Positions 15,695-29,462 of a DNA stretch of 64,000 bases are shown piece after piece (within the stretch, counting starts at the first letter, position 1; every line of letters begins with the position of its first letter). A program made the position numbers and the translations under genes. The notes under the pieces were generated by a model that worked only from the letters and a program-made list of their open reading frames with translations, did not search any database and was not told the origin of the DNA. The stretch is from assembly GCA_020444275.1 (NCBI GenBank), contig JAHLLG010000004.1, positions 1 to 64,000 on the forward strand. Reading direction: 5' to 3'. This DNA comes from Bacteroidota bacterium. Its GTDB lineage: Bacteria; Bacteroidota; Bacteroidia; Bacteroidales; UBA12077.

Positions 15695-15708
15695 ACCAAA
15701 CGGTCGGT
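15695..15708. promoter_or_regulatory. TetR-type operator 1 (ACCAAACGGTCGGT)
   Basis: This site between the -7 element and the tetR ATG (15714) matches ACCRRACGGTMGGW, the same 14-bp pattern found twice more at 16338 and 16407. The half-site spacing is typical of TetR/AcrR operators. It implies autorepression. Confidence 0.65.
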
Positions 15709-15713
15709 TTTAT

Positions 15714-16316
15714 ATGAGTCCAACAAAGGAACATATTATATTAACAGCATTTAGGTTATTTCTTCAGAAGGGATATCGAGAAGTTACAATGAGTATGCTT
15801 GTAAAAGCTACAGGGTTATCCAAAGGGGCTTTTTATCACTATTTTGAAAATAAGGAACAGCTTTTTATAGAAACATTAGATAATTTGTTTTTTTCATTAT
15901 CGCCATTTAACAGTGAAATGATTGTTAATCCCGAAGTGTCATTTTACGAATATATGGAAATGTATATTGAAAATGGTCAAAAAATGGCAAAAATGATTGC
16001 AAGTTATGTTGGAGAAGAATCTTCGGGAATGGGTTATTACAGGTTAATGCTTGATGTAGCGAATTATGCACCCGATTTTCATAAAAAAGTTGAGGAGTCG
16101 AATCAAAACGAGCTGGAATTTTGGAAAAAGATTGTAGATAATGGCATTAATCGGGGAGAACTTAAATCGGAGTTAGATAGAGAAGTTTTGGCTAATCATT
16201 TTCAGTGGTTGCAAGATGGTATAGCTATAAATTCTATATTTTCAGGAAATCCGAAATCGTTATATGAAAATTTAGAAAGAGCATTTAAACAATTATATCA
16301 ATGTATAAAAAAGTAA
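15714..16316 (+). CDS. TetR/AcrR family transcriptional regulator
   Basis: 200 residues with a classic TetR DNA-binding domain (about 6-52: ILTAFRLFLQKGYREVTMSMLVKATGLSKGAFYHYFENKEQLF). The ligand-binding half is variable, Phe/Met-rich and all-helical. It probably represses itself and the downstream acyl-carrier-like operon: one operator-like palindrome sits 5 bp before its ATG and two more lie between its stop and the next gene. The ligand is unknown. The acyl-carrier-like and acyl-CoA synthetase neighbours make a fatty-acid-type effector plausible, which is inference. Confidence 0.92.
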   Translation: MSPTKEHIILTAFRLFLQKGYREVTMSMLVKATGLSKGAFYHYFENKEQLFIETLDNLFFSLSPFNSEMIVNPEVSFYEYMEMYIENGQKMAKMIASYVGEESSGMGYYRLMLDVANYAPDFHKKVEESNQNELEFWKKIVDNGINRGELKSELDREVLANHFQWLQDGIAINSIFSGNPKSLYENLERAFKQLYQCIKK

Positions 16317-16337: not shown

Positions 16338-16351
16338 ACCGGACGGTAGGT
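16338..16351. promoter_or_regulatory. TetR-type operator 2 (ACCGGACGGTAGGT)
   Basis: Same 14-bp pattern as operators 1 and 3, with flanks extending the symmetry (ATACC at 16336-16340, GGTAT at 16349-16353). It lies about where the -33 region of the next promoter should be. Confidence 0.6.
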
Positions 16352-16406: not shown

Positions 16407-16420
16407 ACCGAACGGTCGGA
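16407..16420. promoter_or_regulatory. TetR-type operator 3 (ACCGAACGGTCGGA)
   Basis: The most symmetric copy (CCGAACGGTCGG), 11 bp before the ATG of the acyl-carrier-like gene and downstream of its presumed transcription start. Confidence 0.65.
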
Positions 16421-16431
16421 ATAAATTGGTT

Positions 16432-16671
16432 ATGAAAAATGTAGAACAAAGATTAAAAAGAGTATTGGTTGATTACGGAATCGACCAAAGAAAAATTTCG
16501 AAAGAAAGTGATTACTATTTCGATTTGAACCTTAATATGCTCGATTTGATGGGGTTAGCCAAGAAAATTCAACACGAATTCCTGGTTACAATTCCGGATA
16601 ATGAGTTGTTACGTATGGAATGTATTGCTGATACCATATACTTTTTAGAAAGAAAATCTATTAGGTGTTAG
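16432..16671 (+). CDS. Acyl-carrier-protein-like protein lacking the phosphopantetheine serine
   Basis: 79 residues with the size and pattern of an acyl carrier protein. Helix I is VEQRLKRVLVDYGID. The segment before helix II, FDLNLNMLDLMGL, aligns with the canonical DLGADSLDxVEL, and the C-terminal part has EFLVTIPDNEL and IADTIYFLE. At the position of the serine that receives 4'-phosphopantetheine the codon is ATG (Met), so it cannot be a normal holo-ACP; it may be a scaffold or regulatory ACP homologue. The start is ATG 16432, not the in-frame TTG at 16426. It is the first gene of the TetR-controlled operon, 30 bp before the phosphoesterase. Confidence 0.7.
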   Translation: MKNVEQRLKRVLVDYGIDQRKISKESDYYFDLNLNMLDLMGLAKKIQHEFLVTIPDNELLRMECIADTIYFLERKSIRC

Positions 16672-16701: not shown

Positions 16702-17514
16702 ATGAAAAAGATAAATAAAATATTTACGATGTTAATTATCTTTCTAATTGTTTTAATAACAGGAAGTTGTGAGGAGTACTTCGAGTATAGTCCTTATGCT
16801 GCGAATGTTAAAAGTGAGTATAAATACACATTTGATAAAAATTTAGAAATGCTTAATGAAAGCGATACAGCTCAGAAAAACGTAGTCAAGATTGCTGTTA
16901 TTTCTGATTCACATTATAATTATCATGAGCTAAATGAGGCTATTGTAAATATTAATTCTAGAAATGATATAGATTTTGTTATAGCAAATGGAGATATCTC
17001 TGATCATGGCTACATAAAGGAGTTTGAGCTTTTTCATGATCAGATGGAAAGCTTGACTGTGCCCTATTTTACGGTAATTGGAAATCATGATTACAGATCG
17101 AACGGGGAAGATATCTATAAAACTATGTATGGTGATTATAATAAAACCATAATATTTAATAATATGCTTTTTGTGTTATTTGATGATGTGTTCTGGGAAA
17201 GCAATAAAATTCCCGATTTTACATGGTTAGAAAATAAACTGGCTGAGTCGGATAATTATGACAGAACTTTTGTGCTAGCTCATATACCACCATATAGCCA
17301 TCAATTTACTGATGAAAGTGAAAATTTATACTGCGATTTAATGCGAAGGTATAATGTGGATCTATCTATTCATGGACATGTACATAAGTTTTCTTATGAC
17401 GATTATTATCACGATGGAATGAATTATACTACTATTGGAACAATCATAGATAAGGAATATGGAATCATTACAATGTATGATGATCGGGTAGTAGTTGAAT
17501 CAATTAATTATTAA
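16702..17514 (+). CDS. Metallophosphoesterase lipoprotein (calcineurin-like)
   Basis: 270 residues. An N-terminal lipoprotein signal ends at TGSC (Cys about 23), so it is membrane-anchored outside the cytoplasm. The dinuclear metal motifs are all there in order: D-x-H (VISDSHYN), GD (VIANGDISDHG), GNHD (VIGNHDYRS), H (VLAHIPPYSH) and GHxH (SIHGHVHKF). It should hydrolyse a phosphomonoester or phosphodiester in the periplasm or at the surface; the substrate is unknown. It lies between the ACP-like gene and an outer-membrane protein 5 bp downstream, so probably one operon under the TetR protein. Confidence 0.88.
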   Translation: MKKINKIFTMLIIFLIVLITGSCEEYFEYSPYAANVKSEYKYTFDKNLEMLNESDTAQKNVVKIAVISDSHYNYHELNEAIVNINSRNDIDFVIANGDISDHGYIKEFELFHDQMESLTVPYFTVIGNHDYRSNGEDIYKTMYGDYNKTIIFNNMLFVLFDDVFWESNKIPDFTWLENKLAESDNYDRTFVLAHIPPYSHQFTDESENLYCDLMRRYNVDLSIHGHVHKFSYDDYYHDGMNYTTIGTIIDKEYGIITMYDDRVVVESINY

Positions 17515-17519
17515 GAGCT

Positions 17520-18131
17520 GTGAAACAAAGCATACGAATATTTATAATCATTACTTTTTTGATGCCAATGAGCGAGTTTATAGTTGCTCAAGAAGATCGA
17601 AGTAATACAGATATATACAAAAGTAGAAAATGGTATTCACCAGATTATTTTAAATTACAGTATGCCGGAAACATTGGGTTTTTATCTATCGGATTAGGAT
17701 ATAATTGGTGGCGGGAAAAAGCCCAATCAACCTTCATCTATGGATACGTGCCAGAACATAAAGGTAATACGACAATTCATACCTTTTCAATTAAAAACGA
17801 TTTTAAATTATACTCATTTTATATTAACGACAAATATAATGTTCAACCTATCTTAGGGTTTTCAGTAAGTTTAGAACCCGGGCAAAATTCATATATGCGT
17901 GTTCCGGACCGATTCCCGGATGATTATTACGGACCAAATAGTTTTTATGCATGTATTAATTTGGGGTTAAAAACACATTTCAATTTTGATCCTCAACGTC
18001 ATTTTTCCGGAATTGATATTTATTTCGAATTCAACACCTTAGCCGATTACTTATACTATAATATTATAGCTCAAGAAGATCGCAGCGACAATATAGGTTC
18101 ACTTGCATTAGGGACAAATGTTTTTTTCTAG
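17520..18131 (+). CDS. Predicted outer-membrane beta-barrel protein, unknown function
   Basis: 203 residues from a GTG start 5 bp after the phosphoesterase stop. It has a signal peptide with cleavage near VAQE, then short alternating strands with many aromatic residues and a terminal Phe (LALGTNVFF), as in small outer-membrane barrels. The hexapeptide AQEDRS occurs twice, just after the signal peptide and near the C-terminus. No named family recognised. A terminator follows at 18176. By position it is the last gene of the TetR-linked operon. Confidence 0.7.
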   Translation: MKQSIRIFIIITFLMPMSEFIVAQEDRSNTDIYKSRKWYSPDYFKLQYAGNIGFLSIGLGYNWWREKAQSTFIYGYVPEHKGNTTIHTFSIKNDFKLYSFYINDKYNVQPILGFSVSLEPGQNSYMRVPDRFPDDYYGPNSFYACINLGLKTHFNFDPQRHFSGIDIYFEFNTLADYLYYNIIAQEDRSDNIGSLALGTNVFF

Positions 18132-18175: not shown

Positions 18176-18202
18176 AGAGCGCCTGTGGTGGGCGCTCTTT
18201 TT
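18176..18202 (+). terminator. Rho-independent terminator after the TetR-linked operon
   Basis: An 8-bp GC-rich stem (AGAGCGCC / GGCGCTCT) with a 7-nt loop and T-tract on the plus strand; it ends at the stop of the convergent acyl-CoA synthetase. Confidence 0.8.
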
Positions 18203-19865
18203 ATATATCAGCTCCAGTATATAAAAATCGCTTAATACTTCTTTTGGGTGTTTTAGCAAACTCTTCGGGGTAAATCTTAATTTTCGATATTTGCATGTAT
18301 TTAGCTAATGTAAGGTTCAACTCTTTTTTTGTTTCTTCCATGATGTCTAACAGCCCTGCCTCGCTGATTTTTTCCTGATCTACCAGTTCTAAATCAGGAT
18401 ATACCAAAGCAATCAGCTTTCCTTCTTTTTCAACCACAACGGATTCTTGCACATAGGCCATGTTATTCAATTTAGCCTCAATTTCTTCGGGATAAATATT
18501 TTCACCCGAAGGTCCTAAAATCATACTTTTGTTACGACCCTTAATGAAAACAAAATTTTCCTTGTCGATAACACCCAAATCTCCTGTGTGCAACCAACCG
18601 TCTTTGTCTATGGCTTGCTCAGTTGCCTCTACATTTTTGTAATAACCATACATTACATTTTCGCCACGAACAAGAATTTCTCCAACTTCGCTGTAAGGAT
18701 CGTTGGAGTCAATTTTTATTTCTAATGTATCAACCAGTTTACCCGATGATGTATATTTAGTTTTATCCCAATTTGCATAACTAATTAAAGGTCCGCATTC
18801 TGTCATTCCGTATCCGACAGAATAGTTAAACTTAATTTTGTTTAAGAAACTCTCAACATCATTATTTAACGCAGCACCACCCAAAACAACTTCTTTAAAG
18901 TTTCCGCCAAAAACTTCGTTCAGTTTATTTCTTATTTTACCATAAATCGCTTTGTCGATAAGCGGAACACTCATTAATAGCTGCATTGATTTCTTATCCA
19001 AAAGGGGTAAGATTTGCTTTTTGTAAATCTTTTCAATAATTAAAGGAACAGTAATAATGATTGCCGGCTTAACTTCCTGAAAAGCCTGAATAATAATTTT
19101 AGGCGATGGAGTGCGAGTTAAAAAATGTATGTGGCATCCAATGGTAAAAGGCCATAAAAATTCAAATGCACAACCGTAAGTATGAGCCAGTGGTAAGAAA
19201 GAAACAATGCTATCTCCTGGGTTTAAAGGCATGTTTCGGTGAGCAAAACGAATATTTGCAGCAAGACTGTTTAATGGCAATACAACCCCTTTGGAAAAAC
19301 CAGTTGTTCCTGACGTATAATTCAGAACTCCAACTTCTTCGTTTGAAATTTCGTCGAAAGTTAATTTATCTGCTGTAATTCCACCAGGATAGAAATCTGC
19401 ATATAAGTCGTTCAATTTATCATAAATCGCTTTAACATTTTCTTTATTACCTTCAATAAGAATCCTGAAATCTGTTAAAGAAAAAATGGCCCGTAAGTTG
19501 GGCATGCTTTTTTCGTCAAGGTTTTCCCAGATTGGATCACCGGTAAATAATACTACTGAATCGGAGTGATTTACAATATGGTGAACATCGTTGGGGTGAA
19601 AATCAGGTAGAATTGGTACAACCGTTGCTCCATACGTAACGATAGCAAGGTAGGTTACTGCCCAGTATGCTGAGTTTTTTCCTATTAAAGCTATTTTATC
19701 GCCTTTTTTCACATTACATTCTTCGAACATAATGTGCATTTTAGCAATTTTTCTTGCTACATCACTGTACTTATAACTTTCTCCCTGATAATCTGTTAAA
19801 GCCTGAAGGTCCCAGTTTTTTTTCAGGCTGTTTTCTATATATTTTATAAAATTTTCCGGTATCAT
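18201..19865 (-). CDS. AMP-binding acyl-CoA synthetase (long-chain fatty acid-CoA ligase-like)
   Basis: About 554 residues of the ANL superfamily. The ATP/AMP loop is LNYTSGTTGFSKGVV. Motif A5 is YGMTECGPLI, the hinge/adenylate motif HTGDLGVID, and the catalytic lysine region GRNKSMILGPSGENIYPEEIE. The closest recognisable group is long-chain acyl-CoA synthetases. It activates a carboxylic acid to acyl-AMP, then to a thioester. Start chosen at ATG 19865 (MIPENFIKYI); the longer frame to 19925 adds a hydrophobic 20-residue extension not expected for the family. It converges on the ACP-like/phosphoesterase operon, separated only by that operon's terminator. Confidence 0.88.
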   Translation of the reverse strand: MIPENFIKYIENSLKKNWDLQALTDYQGESYKYSDVARKIAKMHIMFEECNVKKGDKIALIGKNSAYWAVTYLAIVTYGATVVPILPDFHPNDVHHIVNHSDSVVLFTGDPIWENLDEKSMPNLRAIFSLTDFRILIEGNKENVKAIYDKLNDLYADFYPGGITADKLTFDEISNEEVGVLNYTSGTTGFSKGVVLPLNSLAANIRFAHRNMPLNPGDSIVSFLPLAHTYGCAFEFLWPFTIGCHIHFLTRTPSPKIIIQAFQEVKPAIIITVPLIIEKIYKKQILPLLDKKSMQLLMSVPLIDKAIYGKIRNKLNEVFGGNFKEVVLGGAALNNDVESFLNKIKFNYSVGYGMTECGPLISYANWDKTKYTSSGKLVDTLEIKIDSNDPYSEVGEILVRGENVMYGYYKNVEATEQAIDKDGWLHTGDLGVIDKENFVFIKGRNKSMILGPSGENIYPEEIEAKLNNMAYVQESVVVEKEGKLIALVYPDLELVDQEKISEAGLLDIMEETKKELNLTLAKYMQISKIKIYPEEFAKTPKRSIKRFLYTGADI

Positions 19866-25106: not shown

Positions 25107-28100
25107 TTATTTTGTATAAAATTCTAGTTCAATAGCTGTATTATTATAGTTGAGTAAAGATTCCAGATAACCTAAATATATTTCTTGCGCTGCTTTAATG
25201 CTTTGCAAATATTCCAGGTATTCAATTTCCTCTTTTTCGAATTGAGTTTGTGCCGTATTTTTTAATAGTGTGGCTTTTTTTAAGGCATTCTCGTGGTAAT
25301 AGATTAAATCATTTTGGATTTGGTCTAAATGAATTACCAGGTTTTCAATTTCTTTATTCACATTAAATTTTTGATATTCATAATTATTTAATGCTTTTTC
25401 TCGTTCAATTTTAGATGCCTGTACTTTCGCATTTTGAGGGAGAAACCAAAGTGGGATACTCACACCAACGCTCCAACCAGTGAATCCGCCAACATTATCA
25501 ATTTGCTGGTTAAAGTACCCTGCCGATATTTCAGGAAAATATTTCGATCGCTCAACACTGTATTTTATGTTCTCTTGCTGATACAGGTTTTCATAATAAT
25601 TCGTAATGCTTGAGCTGGTAAACCGTTCATTTGGATTTTGGCTTGCCGGTAATTGATATATTGCCAGCGAATCTGATTCGGGAAGAAAATCTCCATCAAC
25701 ATTCATGATCTGTTTTAGATTATTTTCAGCAATAATGAGTTGCTCAGTGGTTTTTAACAGTTCGTTTTTAGAAGAGGCATATTCTGTTTCAGCGAGCGTG
25801 AGTTCCAGTAAATTTGATTCGCCCAATTCATATTTTAATGATGATATACGCACGAATTCTTTGTATAAACCAACCTGCTCCTGCATAATTTTATGCCTGT
25901 TAATAAGATAAATCCACCTGTAGTAAGCCATTTTGGTTTGTGCAACAATTTCTTTTTCGGTTAACACATATTCTTTCTGACGAAGAGAAATTGTATTATT
26001 CACTAATTTCCCTGTTTGAAAATGCGTTAACAGCGAACCAAAGTTCTGATTAATATCAAATGAATAGTCTATTATATCTGAGTTAAGCTGACCTTTTTGG
26101 TAAGAAAACTCTGTGGGAGCAAAATTTAAAATGCCTTGCTTTTGTTTTTCGGCTGATTTTATATCCAGCGCAGCATTTTGTAATGTCGGATTATTTTTAA
26201 TGGTGTTTTCAACAGCTTGTTGCAAGGTTATGGTTTGAATCTGGGATTCTTCCTGCTGCTGACCAAAAACATTCGATGCTCCTATAAATACAAATATGAG
26301 TAAAACTGAAACAGCTTTTTTAGAAACTTTTATTCTGGGTAATCCATTCTTCGAATTAAACAGTTGAAATAAAATGGGTAGTAAAATCATAGTCAATAAA
26401 GTTGATGTAACTAAACCACCAATAACTACCGTTGCCAGAGGTCTCTGCACTTCTGCACCAGATGATGTAGAAAATGCCATGGGTAAAAAACCTACCATTG
26501 TAGAAGCTGCAGTTAACAATACAGGTCGGAGTCTTTCCTTGGTAGCTTTTAGTATTATCTCACGCATATCTAATACTCCCTGGCTTTTTAACTCTTTTAG
26601 ATATTCTATTAATATAATACCATTTAGCACGGCTACACCAAATAAAGCTATAAAACCTATTCCTGCAGAAACACTAAAGGGCATGCCTCTAATCCATAAT
26701 AGAAGAACACCACCAACCGTTGATAGTGGAACTGCTGTAAAAATTAGAGCTGCATCTTTTAGTGATCTAAAAGCAAAATGTAAAAATACAAAGATAAGAA
26801 GCAATGCTATTGGAACAGCAAGCTTTAATCGTTTGGTTGCATTTTCCAGATTTTCAAACTGCCCTCCGTACTTAACATAATAGCCTGCTTTGAGTTCTAA
26901 ATTCTTTTCAACTTTAGTCTGTATATCTTCGATTACTGATTCAAGGTCTCTGTTACGAACATTCACACTAACAACAACTCTTCGATGCGTATTCTCTCTT
27001 GAAATTTTTGCCGGACCTGTGGTGTAATTTATTGTAGCAACCTCTTCTAACGGAATTTGCTTACCATTGGGCAAACCGATGTAAAGCTTTCTAATATTTT
27101 CAATATCATTTCTATATGATTCGTCGAATCGAACGGCCAAATCGAAACGCTTTTCACCTTCAAAAGTGCTTCCGGCAATATACCCGCCAAAAGCCATGGA
27201 AAGTTGCCTGTTTAGCTCTTCGATACTTAAACCATAATAAGCTAGATTATTTCGTTTATACTGAACACTCACCTGTGGCAGTCCAACCGTTTTCTCTAAA
27301 ATGATGTCGGCAGCACCAGGAACATCTTCAATCAATTTTTTAATTTCAGAAGCTTTGGTATCAAGGTACTGAATATCTTCGCCAAATAATTTAATGGCAA
27401 TATCGGCTCTTACACCGGTTATTAGTTCGTTAAACCGCATTTCAATGGGTTGGGTAAATTCATAATCGATTCCCGGAATTACAGATAAAGCATCTTTAAA
27501 TTTATTGGCAAGTTCTTCTTTGCTCTTTGTAACTTTCCACTGGCTCCGTGGTTTTAATTTAATGATCATATCGATTTCTTCCATCGACATTGGATCAGTA
27601 GGAACTTCGGCGGCTCCAATACGACAGACAATCTGGTCAACCTCATCGAAATTATCAATCAGAATCTGTTCCATTTTTGTTGTCAGATCTATGGTTTTTG
27701 TCAATGAGGTCCCTGTTTTGAGAACAGGTTGTATAACAAAGTCTCCTTCGTCGAGTGTTGGAACAAACTCGCCTCCCATTCTGGAAAAAATAATTGCTGT
27801 AAATGTGACCACAACTAGTGTGGAGCCAATAATTAATGCTTTATGATCATAAGCCCATTTAATAACCGGTTCGTACGATTTATGAATTAGGTTCATGGCC
27901 CACTTTGAAATGCTTTTATTTTTTTGTTTTTCTGGTTTCAAAAATAATGATGAAGCTACCGGTAGCCAGGTAAAACCTAAGATCATAGCACCAATTATGG
28001 CAAAACTGAATGATAAAGCCATAGGTCGGAACATTTTTCCTTCAACGCCACTTAACGTAAGAATAGGAACCAATACAACCAGAATAATAATTTGACCGAA

Positions 28101-29462
28101 AATTGCTGAACTCATCATTTTGGATGCACCATGGAATGTAATTTTATCCAGTAATACTTGCTTTTGTTTCCCTTGCGATTTTTCAAAATCGGTTTGGCTG
28201 GCCGTAATACGTATCGAAATAAATTCGACAATAATAACGGCACCATCGATTATAATACCGAAGTCAAGCGCACCCAAACTCATCAGGTTAGCATCTATTC
28301 CCAGAATATACATCATAGATATTGTGAACAGGAGTGATAATGGTATGATAGATGCAATAACAAGTGATGCACGAATATTTCCTAAAAAAAAGATAACTAC
28401 GAAAACAATGATCAAACAACCAAGAATTAAATTTTCGTAAATTGTACTGGTGGTTCTTCCAATCAGTTCACTTCGTTCTACGATTGGATTAATGTAAACA
28501 CCTTCGGGCAAACTTTTCTGAACTTCATCAACACGTTCTTTAACAGCATTAATTACTTCTTTCGAGTTGGCATTTTTGAGCATCATGATTTGCCCCATAA
28601 CTTTTTCACCTTCTCCATTTGCCGTAATCGCACCATATCGATTGGCATGTCCGAAACGTACTGTTGCTATATCTTTTATTAATATGGGTGTTCCTTTAAC
28701 ATTTTTAACTACAATTGATTCTATATCTTCAATGGAGCTAACCATTCCGTTTCCACGGATAAAATAGCTCATGTTTTGTTTTTCAATATAAGCACCACCT
28801 GCAATACTGTTGTTCTTTTCTATGGCACTAAAAACTTCCAGTAAAGTTATCTTCGAGCTAAGAAGTTGATCAGGGCTGATGGCAATTTCGTACTGTTTTA
28901 AAAATCCTCCCCAGGTATTGACCTCAACAACTCCCGGAATACCAGAAAGCTGGCGCTTGGCAATCCAATCTTGAATAGTGCGCAACTCCATCGTTGAATA
29001 TCGATTTTCGAAGCCCGGTTTTACATCCAGGATATACTGATATATTTCACCCAATCCCGTTGAAATAGGTCCCATTTCGGGCGTTCCAAATCCTTCGGGG
29101 ATATTATCTGCTGCTGCTTTTATTTTTTCTGCTATTAACTGGCGGGGAAGATAGGTTCCCAGTTTTTCATCGAAAACGATGGTGACAACAGATAATCCAA
29201 ATTTAGACACTGAACGTATTTCTTGTACGCCCGGTAAGTTGGCCATTTCCAATTCAACCGGAGCCGTTATAAACTGCTCTACATCCTGAGTTGATAAGTT
29301 TGTCGATACTGTAATTACTTGTACCTGGTTGTTTGTAACATCCGGAACGGCGCCAACCGGTATTTTGTAAACAGCAAAAATTCCAAATGCAGCAATGGTC
29401 AGTGTGAAAAGAATAACTATCAGCTTATTCTTTATGCTGAAGTTGATGATATGGTTAATCAT
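25107..29462 (-). CDS. CzcA/CusA-type heavy-metal RND pump fused to a TolC-family outer-membrane factor
   Basis: 1451 residues. Residues 1 to about 1040 are an HME-type RND transporter: 12 membrane helices, two large periplasmic loops, and the TM4 signature GALDFGIIIDGAVIIVE (two Asp, typical of Zn/Co/Ni/Cd CzcA-like pumps rather than Cu/Ag CusA). Residues from about 1067 on are a TolC-family protein with two repeats of coiled helices. At the joint (about 1045-1066) is KKAVSVLLIFVFIGASNVFGQ, which looks like a signal peptide with a cleavage site. CusA-CusC fusions are known in Bacteroidota. Together with the adaptor it makes a whole tripartite metal pump from two genes. Two AGAATTCT palindromes lie upstream. 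Confidence 0.92.
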   Translation of the reverse strand: MINHIINFSIKNKLIVILFTLTIAAFGIFAVYKIPVGAVPDVTNNQVQVITVSTNLSTQDVEQFITAPVELEMANLPGVQEIRSVSKFGLSVVTIVFDEKLGTYLPRQLIAEKIKAAADNIPEGFGTPEMGPISTGLGEIYQYILDVKPGFENRYSTMELRTIQDWIAKRQLSGIPGVVEVNTWGGFLKQYEIAISPDQLLSSKITLLEVFSAIEKNNSIAGGAYIEKQNMSYFIRGNGMVSSIEDIESIVVKNVKGTPILIKDIATVRFGHANRYGAITANGEGEKVMGQIMMLKNANSKEVINAVKERVDEVQKSLPEGVYINPIVERSELIGRTTSTIYENLILGCLIIVFVVIFFLGNIRASLVIASIIPLSLLFTISMMYILGIDANLMSLGALDFGIIIDGAVIIVEFISIRITASQTDFEKSQGKQKQVLLDKITFHGASKMMSSAIFGQIIILVVLVPILTLSGVEGKMFRPMALSFSFAIIGAMILGFTWLPVASSLFLKPEKQKNKSISKWAMNLIHKSYEPVIKWAYDHKALIIGSTLVVVTFTAIIFSRMGGEFVPTLDEGDFVIQPVLKTGTSLTKTIDLTTKMEQILIDNFDEVDQIVCRIGAAEVPTDPMSMEEIDMIIKLKPRSQWKVTKSKEELANKFKDALSVIPGIDYEFTQPIEMRFNELITGVRADIAIKLFGEDIQYLDTKASEIKKLIEDVPGAADIILEKTVGLPQVSVQYKRNNLAYYGLSIEELNRQLSMAFGGYIAGSTFEGEKRFDLAVRFDESYRNDIENIRKLYIGLPNGKQIPLEEVATINYTTGPAKISRENTHRRVVVSVNVRNRDLESVIEDIQTKVEKNLELKAGYYVKYGGQFENLENATKRLKLAVPIALLLIFVFLHFAFRSLKDAALIFTAVPLSTVGGVLLLWIRGMPFSVSAGIGFIALFGVAVLNGIILIEYLKELKSQGVLDMREIILKATKERLRPVLLTAASTMVGFLPMAFSTSSGAEVQRPLATVVIGGLVTSTLLTMILLPILFQLFNSKNGLPRIKVSKKAVSVLLIFVFIGASNVFGQQQEESQIQTITLQQAVENTIKNNPTLQNAALDIKSAEKQKQGILNFAPTEFSYQKGQLNSDIIDYSFDINQNFGSLLTHFQTGKLVNNTISLRQKEYVLTEKEIVAQTKMAYYRWIYLINRHKIMQEQVGLYKEFVRISSLKYELGESNLLELTLAETEYASSKNELLKTTEQLIIAENNLKQIMNVDGDFLPESDSLAIYQLPASQNPNERFTSSSITNYYENLYQQENIKYSVERSKYFPEISAGYFNQQIDNVGGFTGWSVGVSIPLWFLPQNAKVQASKIEREKALNNYEYQKFNVNKEIENLVIHLDQIQNDLIYYHENALKKATLLKNTAQTQFEKEEIEYLEYLQSIKAAQEIYLGYLESLLNYNNTAIELEFYTK

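Follow-up and report, generated by a model that had tools for sequence, protein, structure and literature searches.

The carrier work of acyl carrier proteins (ACPs) needs a prosthetic arm. The family represented by Pfam PP-binding (PF00550) is recognized by an ACP sequence profile, a helical fold, the serine of the DSL motif and an acidic recognition helix II. The closest described case of an ACP without this serine is the mitochondrial ACP (mACP) of Plasmodium, for which the available part of the source reports a phenylalanine, Phe113, at the serine site and binding to Isd11; the wild-type protein co-purified with Isd11, whereas the F113A form did not (PMC8547962). On the regulatory side, PfmR is a fatty-acid regulator of Thermus for which the site TACCGACCGNTNGGTN is predicted, as given in the accessible part of the report (PMC7022988). 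Our search of the open-licence literature found no bacterial ACP lacking the serine or phosphopantetheine, nor a TetR setting of the kind described below for such a protein, which is not to imply that none is in print.

Here we describe ACP1, a 79-aa ACP-fold protein encoded in a stretch of 64,000 nucleotides from a Bacteroidota genome (hereafter the window). The gene acp1 (16432..16671, forward strand) was recognized from its ORF, homology, orthologues and structural model, and its product carries Met36 at the position of the phosphopantetheine serine. As in the mACP of Plasmodium and other apicomplexans, the ACP fold is kept and the serine is replaced by a bulky hydrophobic residue; the Plasmodium protein, so far as the available part of the source goes, functions without a prosthetic group, and the same is proposed here for ACP1 (PMC8547962). 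However, that source places the Plasmodium mACP in a eukaryotic mitochondrion as an Isd11-Nfs1 binder with Glu retained at positions +5 and +11 (PMC8547962), whereas ACP1 is bacterial and TetR-linked, with Gly or Arg at +5 and Gln, Lys or Arg at +11 in 6/6 sequences. Since ACP1 lacks these acidic residues, its partner should differ from that of the Plasmodium protein.

ACP1 is an ACP homologue without the attachment serine

The acp1 ORF begins with ATG, and the initial annotation had read its product as an ACP homologue lacking the attachment serine. This description holds: ACP1 scores 21.5 bits against Pfam PP-binding (cut-off 20.8), and the DSL position reads N35-M36-L37. NCBIfam acyl carrier models match it with E-values down to 4e-10, ACPs of the PDB with E-values down to 3e-8, and profile comparison with carrier ACPs gives an E-value of 4.4e-11. 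ACP1 has the sequence profile and the helical fold of PF00550; it matches 11 NCBIfam ACP models, scoring under the curated cut-off in each case (best 39.3 of 71 bits). Compared with the housekeeping AcpP (TIGR00517, PF00550), it keeps the fold, the length and the residues D31-L32, L37-D38, E49-F50 and I54-P55-D56, but lacks the attachment serine, has a neutral helix II and is encoded without fab genes beside it. A scan of genome contigs also returned three loci with chance matches to YFDLNLNM within ORFs reading as TonB-type receptors, and these were set aside.

Structure prediction also returned ACPs as the nearest matches. AlphaFold2, run on the single window sequence, gave a best model of moderate quality (pLDDT 73, pTM 0.66) with helices at residues 3-14, 36-50 and 62-74, the remaining four of the five models having a pLDDT of 48-60. 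The top Foldseek matches of the ACP1 model are ACPs (best E-value 0.011, none under 0.001), and VIA-align aligned it best with the ACP 2ehs, with a Z-score of 6.8 and an rmsd of 3.0 over 69 residues. A Z-score of 6.8 is moderate for a helical bundle, and the ACP assignment of ACP1 is carried by the sequence evidence.

Occurrence, selection and the altered surface of ACP1

Orthologues 64-79% identical to ACP1 are present in five further genomes (G009, G010, G011, G017 and G022) of a family set of 25, of which 20 belong to the genus of the window and five to a sister genus. With the window included, acp1 is carried by 6/20 genus genomes and by 0/5 of the sister genus; the genus genomes are partly incomplete, and among the 11 with at least 90% completeness, five have ACP1. 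A search of 247 genomes of the order found nothing near the orthologues, the best other match having an E-value of 6e-10; it yielded 29 new loci, and DSL is present in all 28 that were read (L046, not read in the right frame, was left out of this count). When 395 genomes of the phylum were searched with an ACP1 profile at 1e-13, with no more than 13 candidates of each genome scored, the window's own gene was the sole match, and a search of plasmids and phages gave no match. Within the samples searched, ACP1 is limited to part of one genus; more distant serine-less ACPs may lie beyond the reach of the order and phylum searches.

The attachment site reads DML in G009, G010 and G022 and DIL in G011 and G017, and serine is absent from position 36 in 6/6 sequences, the window included (Met in four, Ile in two). 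Over 15 pairs, the pn/ps of acp1 is 0.13-0.33 with synonymous sites near saturation, and 33 columns are invariant among the six proteins. Because of these ratios and the missing serine in every orthologue, acp1 can be regarded neither as a chance ORF nor as a strain-specific change, the latter being the outcome against which the initial annotation had set its claim. The combination known from the Plasmodium mACP, a hydrophobic replacement of the serine in a gene under selection, is thus found here as well. A duplicated ACP heading to decay would fit the patchy occurrence in 6/20 genus genomes and the absence of acp1 from G015 in spite of its tetR1 and operator; however, the low pn/ps at near-saturated synonymous sites and the invariant columns argue against decay, and we regard it as the least probable of the explanations considered.

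The genome of the window also encodes a housekeeping ACP with DSL, against which the surface of ACP1 could be compared. Helix II (residues 35-50) has a charge of -1 to +1 in the six ACP1 sequences as compared to -5 in the housekeeping ACP, and the corresponding values for the whole protein are -4 to +2 and -15. At the level of sequence, the acidic recognition helix II of PF00550 is absent from ACP1; the G011 and G022 orthologues are still acidic overall (pI 4.7-4.8). Residues that are invariant in ACP1 and absent from carrier ACPs include Y28-Y29-F30 and N33 round the old site, along with R61-M62-E63. We read the surface round the former attachment site as altered for another use and not as decayed. 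ACP1 could perhaps still do carrier work by way of a different modified residue or different chemistry, as the retained ACP fold would allow. However, the start of helix II has no Ser or Thr in 6/6 sequences, the acidic face is lost and the cassette described below contains no biosynthetic genes, leaving continued carrier work a very slim chance.

The tetR1-acp1 cassette and its neighbours

The gene tetR1 (15714..16316, forward strand) encodes a 200-aa TetR-family regulator (Pfam TetR_N, 61.6 bits). It is found, with E-values below 1e-94, in all six acp1 genomes and in G015, where tetR1, the operator and a phosphoesterase gene are present and acp1 is absent (L160 5284-5920). The tetR1-acp1 cassette sits between ispD and the gene of a calcineurin-like phosphoesterase (16702..17514, forward strand), a putative lipoprotein by its N-terminus. 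With the phosphoesterase gene travels that of a putative outer-membrane protein (17520..18131, forward strand), so read with no family match. The convergent acyl-CoA synthetase (AMP-binding) that the initial annotation placed at the far end lies at 18201..19865 on the reverse strand.

In G014, G019, G020, G023 and G024, the ispD, phosphoesterase, membrane-protein and synthetase genes adjoin without tetR1 or acp1, and in G006, also without these two, the phosphoesterase pair is separated from both ispD and the synthetase gene. As in the window, the gene stretch is closed by the synthetase in G009, G010, G017 and G022; in G017, the synthetase comes after tetR1-acp1 and the phosphoesterase is missing. 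The G011 locus differs in that efflux genes stand between its cassette and its synthetase. Because the neighbours stand together in five genomes without the cassette, tetR1-acp1 is the conserved unit, with the phosphoesterase gene an inherited neighbour and the synthetase gene an old one outside the cassette. The operon that acp1 was first thought to head under TetR control is thus confirmed in part: the tetR1-acp1 pair stands, whereas its link to the phosphoesterase and membrane-protein genes does not hold. ACP1 might instead assist or scaffold the neighbouring synthetase or phosphoesterase, given that the genes are adjacent in the window and that the synthetase closes the stretch in four other genomes. 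However, the five genomes without the cassette, the G017 locus without phosphoesterase and the intervening efflux genes of G011 all argue against such a role, as does the finding that no operator, exact or with one mismatch, lies at the synthetase in the genome of the window; the proposed tie to the synthetase is not upheld, and a helper or scaffold function has a slim chance.

Some further observations were made on these genes. In the G011 locus (L070 2345-8462), the phosphoesterase/membrane-protein pair is parted from the synthetase by ORFs reading as MarR, TolC, membrane-fusion and RND efflux proteins. Divergent extra copies of the phosphoesterase gene (16702-17514) occur in several family genomes, five with the membrane-protein gene, and PADLOC, run on four proteins, gave as its sole match a weak one of the phosphoesterase to the candidate defence model PDC-S10. 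Elsewhere in the window, a 1451-aa ORF (25107-29462, reverse strand) can be read as a fusion between an RND efflux pump and an outer-membrane factor of TolC type. Rfam gave no match in the window at gathering scores.

TetR-type operators

At the tetR1 promoter, the operator ACCAAACGGTCGGT (15695..15708) directly follows a TATATTTG box, which we take to be a Bacteroidetes-type -7 element. Two further sites lie between tetR1 and acp1, viz., the operator-like site A with two mismatches (16338..16351) and the operator site B, ACCGAACGGTCGGA (16407..16420), 11 bases before acp1. Site A has counterparts with one or two mismatches in G009, G011, G017 and G022, and none was seen in G010. Site B is exact in 5/6 acp1 loci, carries two mismatches in G017, and is also present in G015, where acp1 is absent. 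The palindrome-like pattern ACCRAACGNTCGGW is common to the tetR1 promoter and the region before acp1, and the gene tetR1 encodes a TetR_N domain and has an operator-like palindrome at the promoter.

In its own genome (4.22 Mb), exact matches to ACCRAACGNTCGGW occur at three places, which are tetR1, acp1 and G000:C10:53947, before the ORF here called ACP2; the expectation for exact matches from the dinucleotides of the window is 0.12. We extended the count to 14 genomes chosen from the 25 (seven with tetR1, five of the genus without tetR1 and two of the sister genus), in which 20/21 exact places are at tetR1, acp1, ACP2 or a related tetR and the remaining one is inside a G016 ORF reading as fabI. 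With one mismatch allowed, the pattern is no commoner in the 14 genomes than a backward control, the count of which pools exact and inexact matches, and therefore only exact matches were counted.

Related TetRs (34-38% identical) with such operators are found in G006, G007, G008 and G013 (L154, L155, L157 and L158), where they precede genes reading as ABC-2 transporters. At these loci the operator is seen on both sides of the TetR where both are on the contig. Across the order, TetR1 relatives at an E-value of 1e-22 are present in 16/247 genomes. A site within one mismatch occurs at 7/13 of the relatives, and 11/13 of the new ones adjoin genes reading as ABC transporters or TolC/efflux parts, no transporter being seen beside L178 and L180; reading of the ORFs within 1.5 kb on each side of the 13 new loci (L168-L180) showed no ACP-like neighbour. 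At 1e-15, tetR1 is the only TetR of its group in G000, G009 and G011, and G017 has a second at 1e-16. Near-identical operators belong to further TetRs of the order too, and TetR1 is therefore the probable binder of the operators described here, and not a proven one.

TetR1 shares the TetR N-terminal domain with PfmR/TTHB023 of Thermus, which has ACCGA/TCGGT-type sites. PfmR-type regulators have fatty-acid synthesis genes as targets, whereas the candidate targets here are serine-less ACP-like genes. It is conceivable that ACP1 acts as a buffer for free fatty acids or other small hydrophobic molecules, held non-covalently in its helical bundle, with TetR1 sensing the same molecule. The transporter or efflux genes read beside 11/13 TetR1 relatives and the conservation of aromatic and hydrophobic side chains next to the old site would suit such a role, as would the closeness of the operator to the site predicted for PfmR in the accessible part of its source (PMC7022988). 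However, this operator type is common to transporter-linked TetRs and therefore says little about the ligand. Moreover, ACPs hold their chains by a covalent tether, and we consider small-molecule binding by ACP1 unlikely.

A second, probably serine-less ORF and the RNA before it

ACP2 is an 88-aa ORF (L121 1501-1767 = G000:C10:54098-54364) behind a TetR-type operator, flanked by ORFs reading as a DEAD-box helicase and a methylglyoxal synthase, with rsmI beyond. It was found in 4/98 genomes searched, each with tetR1 and acp1, and the operator precedes it in 4/4; the relatives in G017 and G009 match at 38%, that of G011 has a GTG start, and G010 and G022, which carry tetR1 and acp1, gave no match. 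Differences by codon position (41/16/49 in one pair) and a pn/ps of 0.47-0.52 in three pairs of G000, G009 and G017 (G011 left out) show that ACP2 is a fast-evolving ORF under coding selection. Its sequence resembles ACP1 weakly, and its assignment as an ACP is less firm than that of ACP1: profile comparison gives a probability of 79% with ACP1 (E-value 1.7e-5) and of 43% with carrier ACPs, the one member scanned has no NCBIfam match, 0/4 members have a Pfam ACP match, and a PDB search gave no convincing match. The position of Ser36 is taken by E, A, T and Q in a register uncertain by one residue, and in G000 and G009 a serine stands next to it.

An RNA element of 116 nt with a nearly invariant core (L183 1501-1619; L181, L182, L184 and L185) is situated between ACP2 and its operator. 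RNAalifold on four sequences gives 26 pairs, nine of which are changed on both sides. In a model-fitted alignment of seven rows, which leans towards its own structure and includes two weak rows (G021 with 31 bits and a second match in the G017 locus with 22 bits), the number is 21/26 pairs, which was reached by 0/500 shuffles; slid versions of the alignment gave nine pairs at most. A search of the 25 family genomes, with 148 candidates scored in each, recovered the RNA from the four ACP2 genomes and from G015, which has no ACP2 ORF, and gave a weak match in G021 (70% complete), where tetR1 was not found; it was not found in the acp1 carriers G010 and G022. Rfam gave no match on the four ACP2 loci up to an E-value of 1.

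Proposed function and implications

The above findings suggest that the ACP fold has here been turned from fatty-acid carriage to the binding of other molecules. The idea that an ACP-like protein in such a TetR setting may have a non-carrier role, already put forward in the initial annotation, gains from the Met or Ile in 6/6 sequences, the purifying selection and the TetR-type operators before acp1 in 6/6 loci. We think it reasonably probable that ACP1 forms a TetR-controlled, non-carrier module whose former attachment site now serves to bind a protein. ACP1 would then bear neither phosphopantetheine nor acyl groups, having given up carrier work. The adjacent TetR1 would repress acp1 via the operators at the tetR1 promoter and in front of acp1, and the third operator, before ACP2, may serve the same repressor. 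A signal, probably hydrophobic or amphipathic, would release TetR1, upon which ACP1 would be made, together with ACP2 in some species. ACP1 would subsequently act as a stoichiometric protein-binding module, likely through the surface formed by Y28-Y29-F30, M/I36 and R61-M62-E63.

Several points count against the protein-binding reading: the acids at +5 and +11 are lost, G015 has tetR1 without acp1, G010 and G022 are without ACP2 and the RNA, the G011 and G022 proteins are acidic, near-identical operators exist elsewhere and the model is a moderate one from one sequence. A wider proposal, which we offer tentatively, is that of a TetR switch with a regulon comprising the repressor, two carrier-dead ACP-fold proteins and the covarying leader RNA as a third output, the old site perhaps serving as a hydrophobic docking surface.

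Working serine-less ACPs are known in apicomplexans, and a bacterial one with its own TetR, and probably with a second serine-less gene and an RNA, looks like a new form of them so far as the open-licence literature searched goes. The small candidate regulon (tetR1, acp1 and RNA-ACP2) makes both the signal and the partner directly testable, with G015 and the genomes without the cassette as natural comparisons. If the proposal is true, bacteria, like apicomplexan mitochondria, would make use of the ACP fold as a reusable module for binding proteins.
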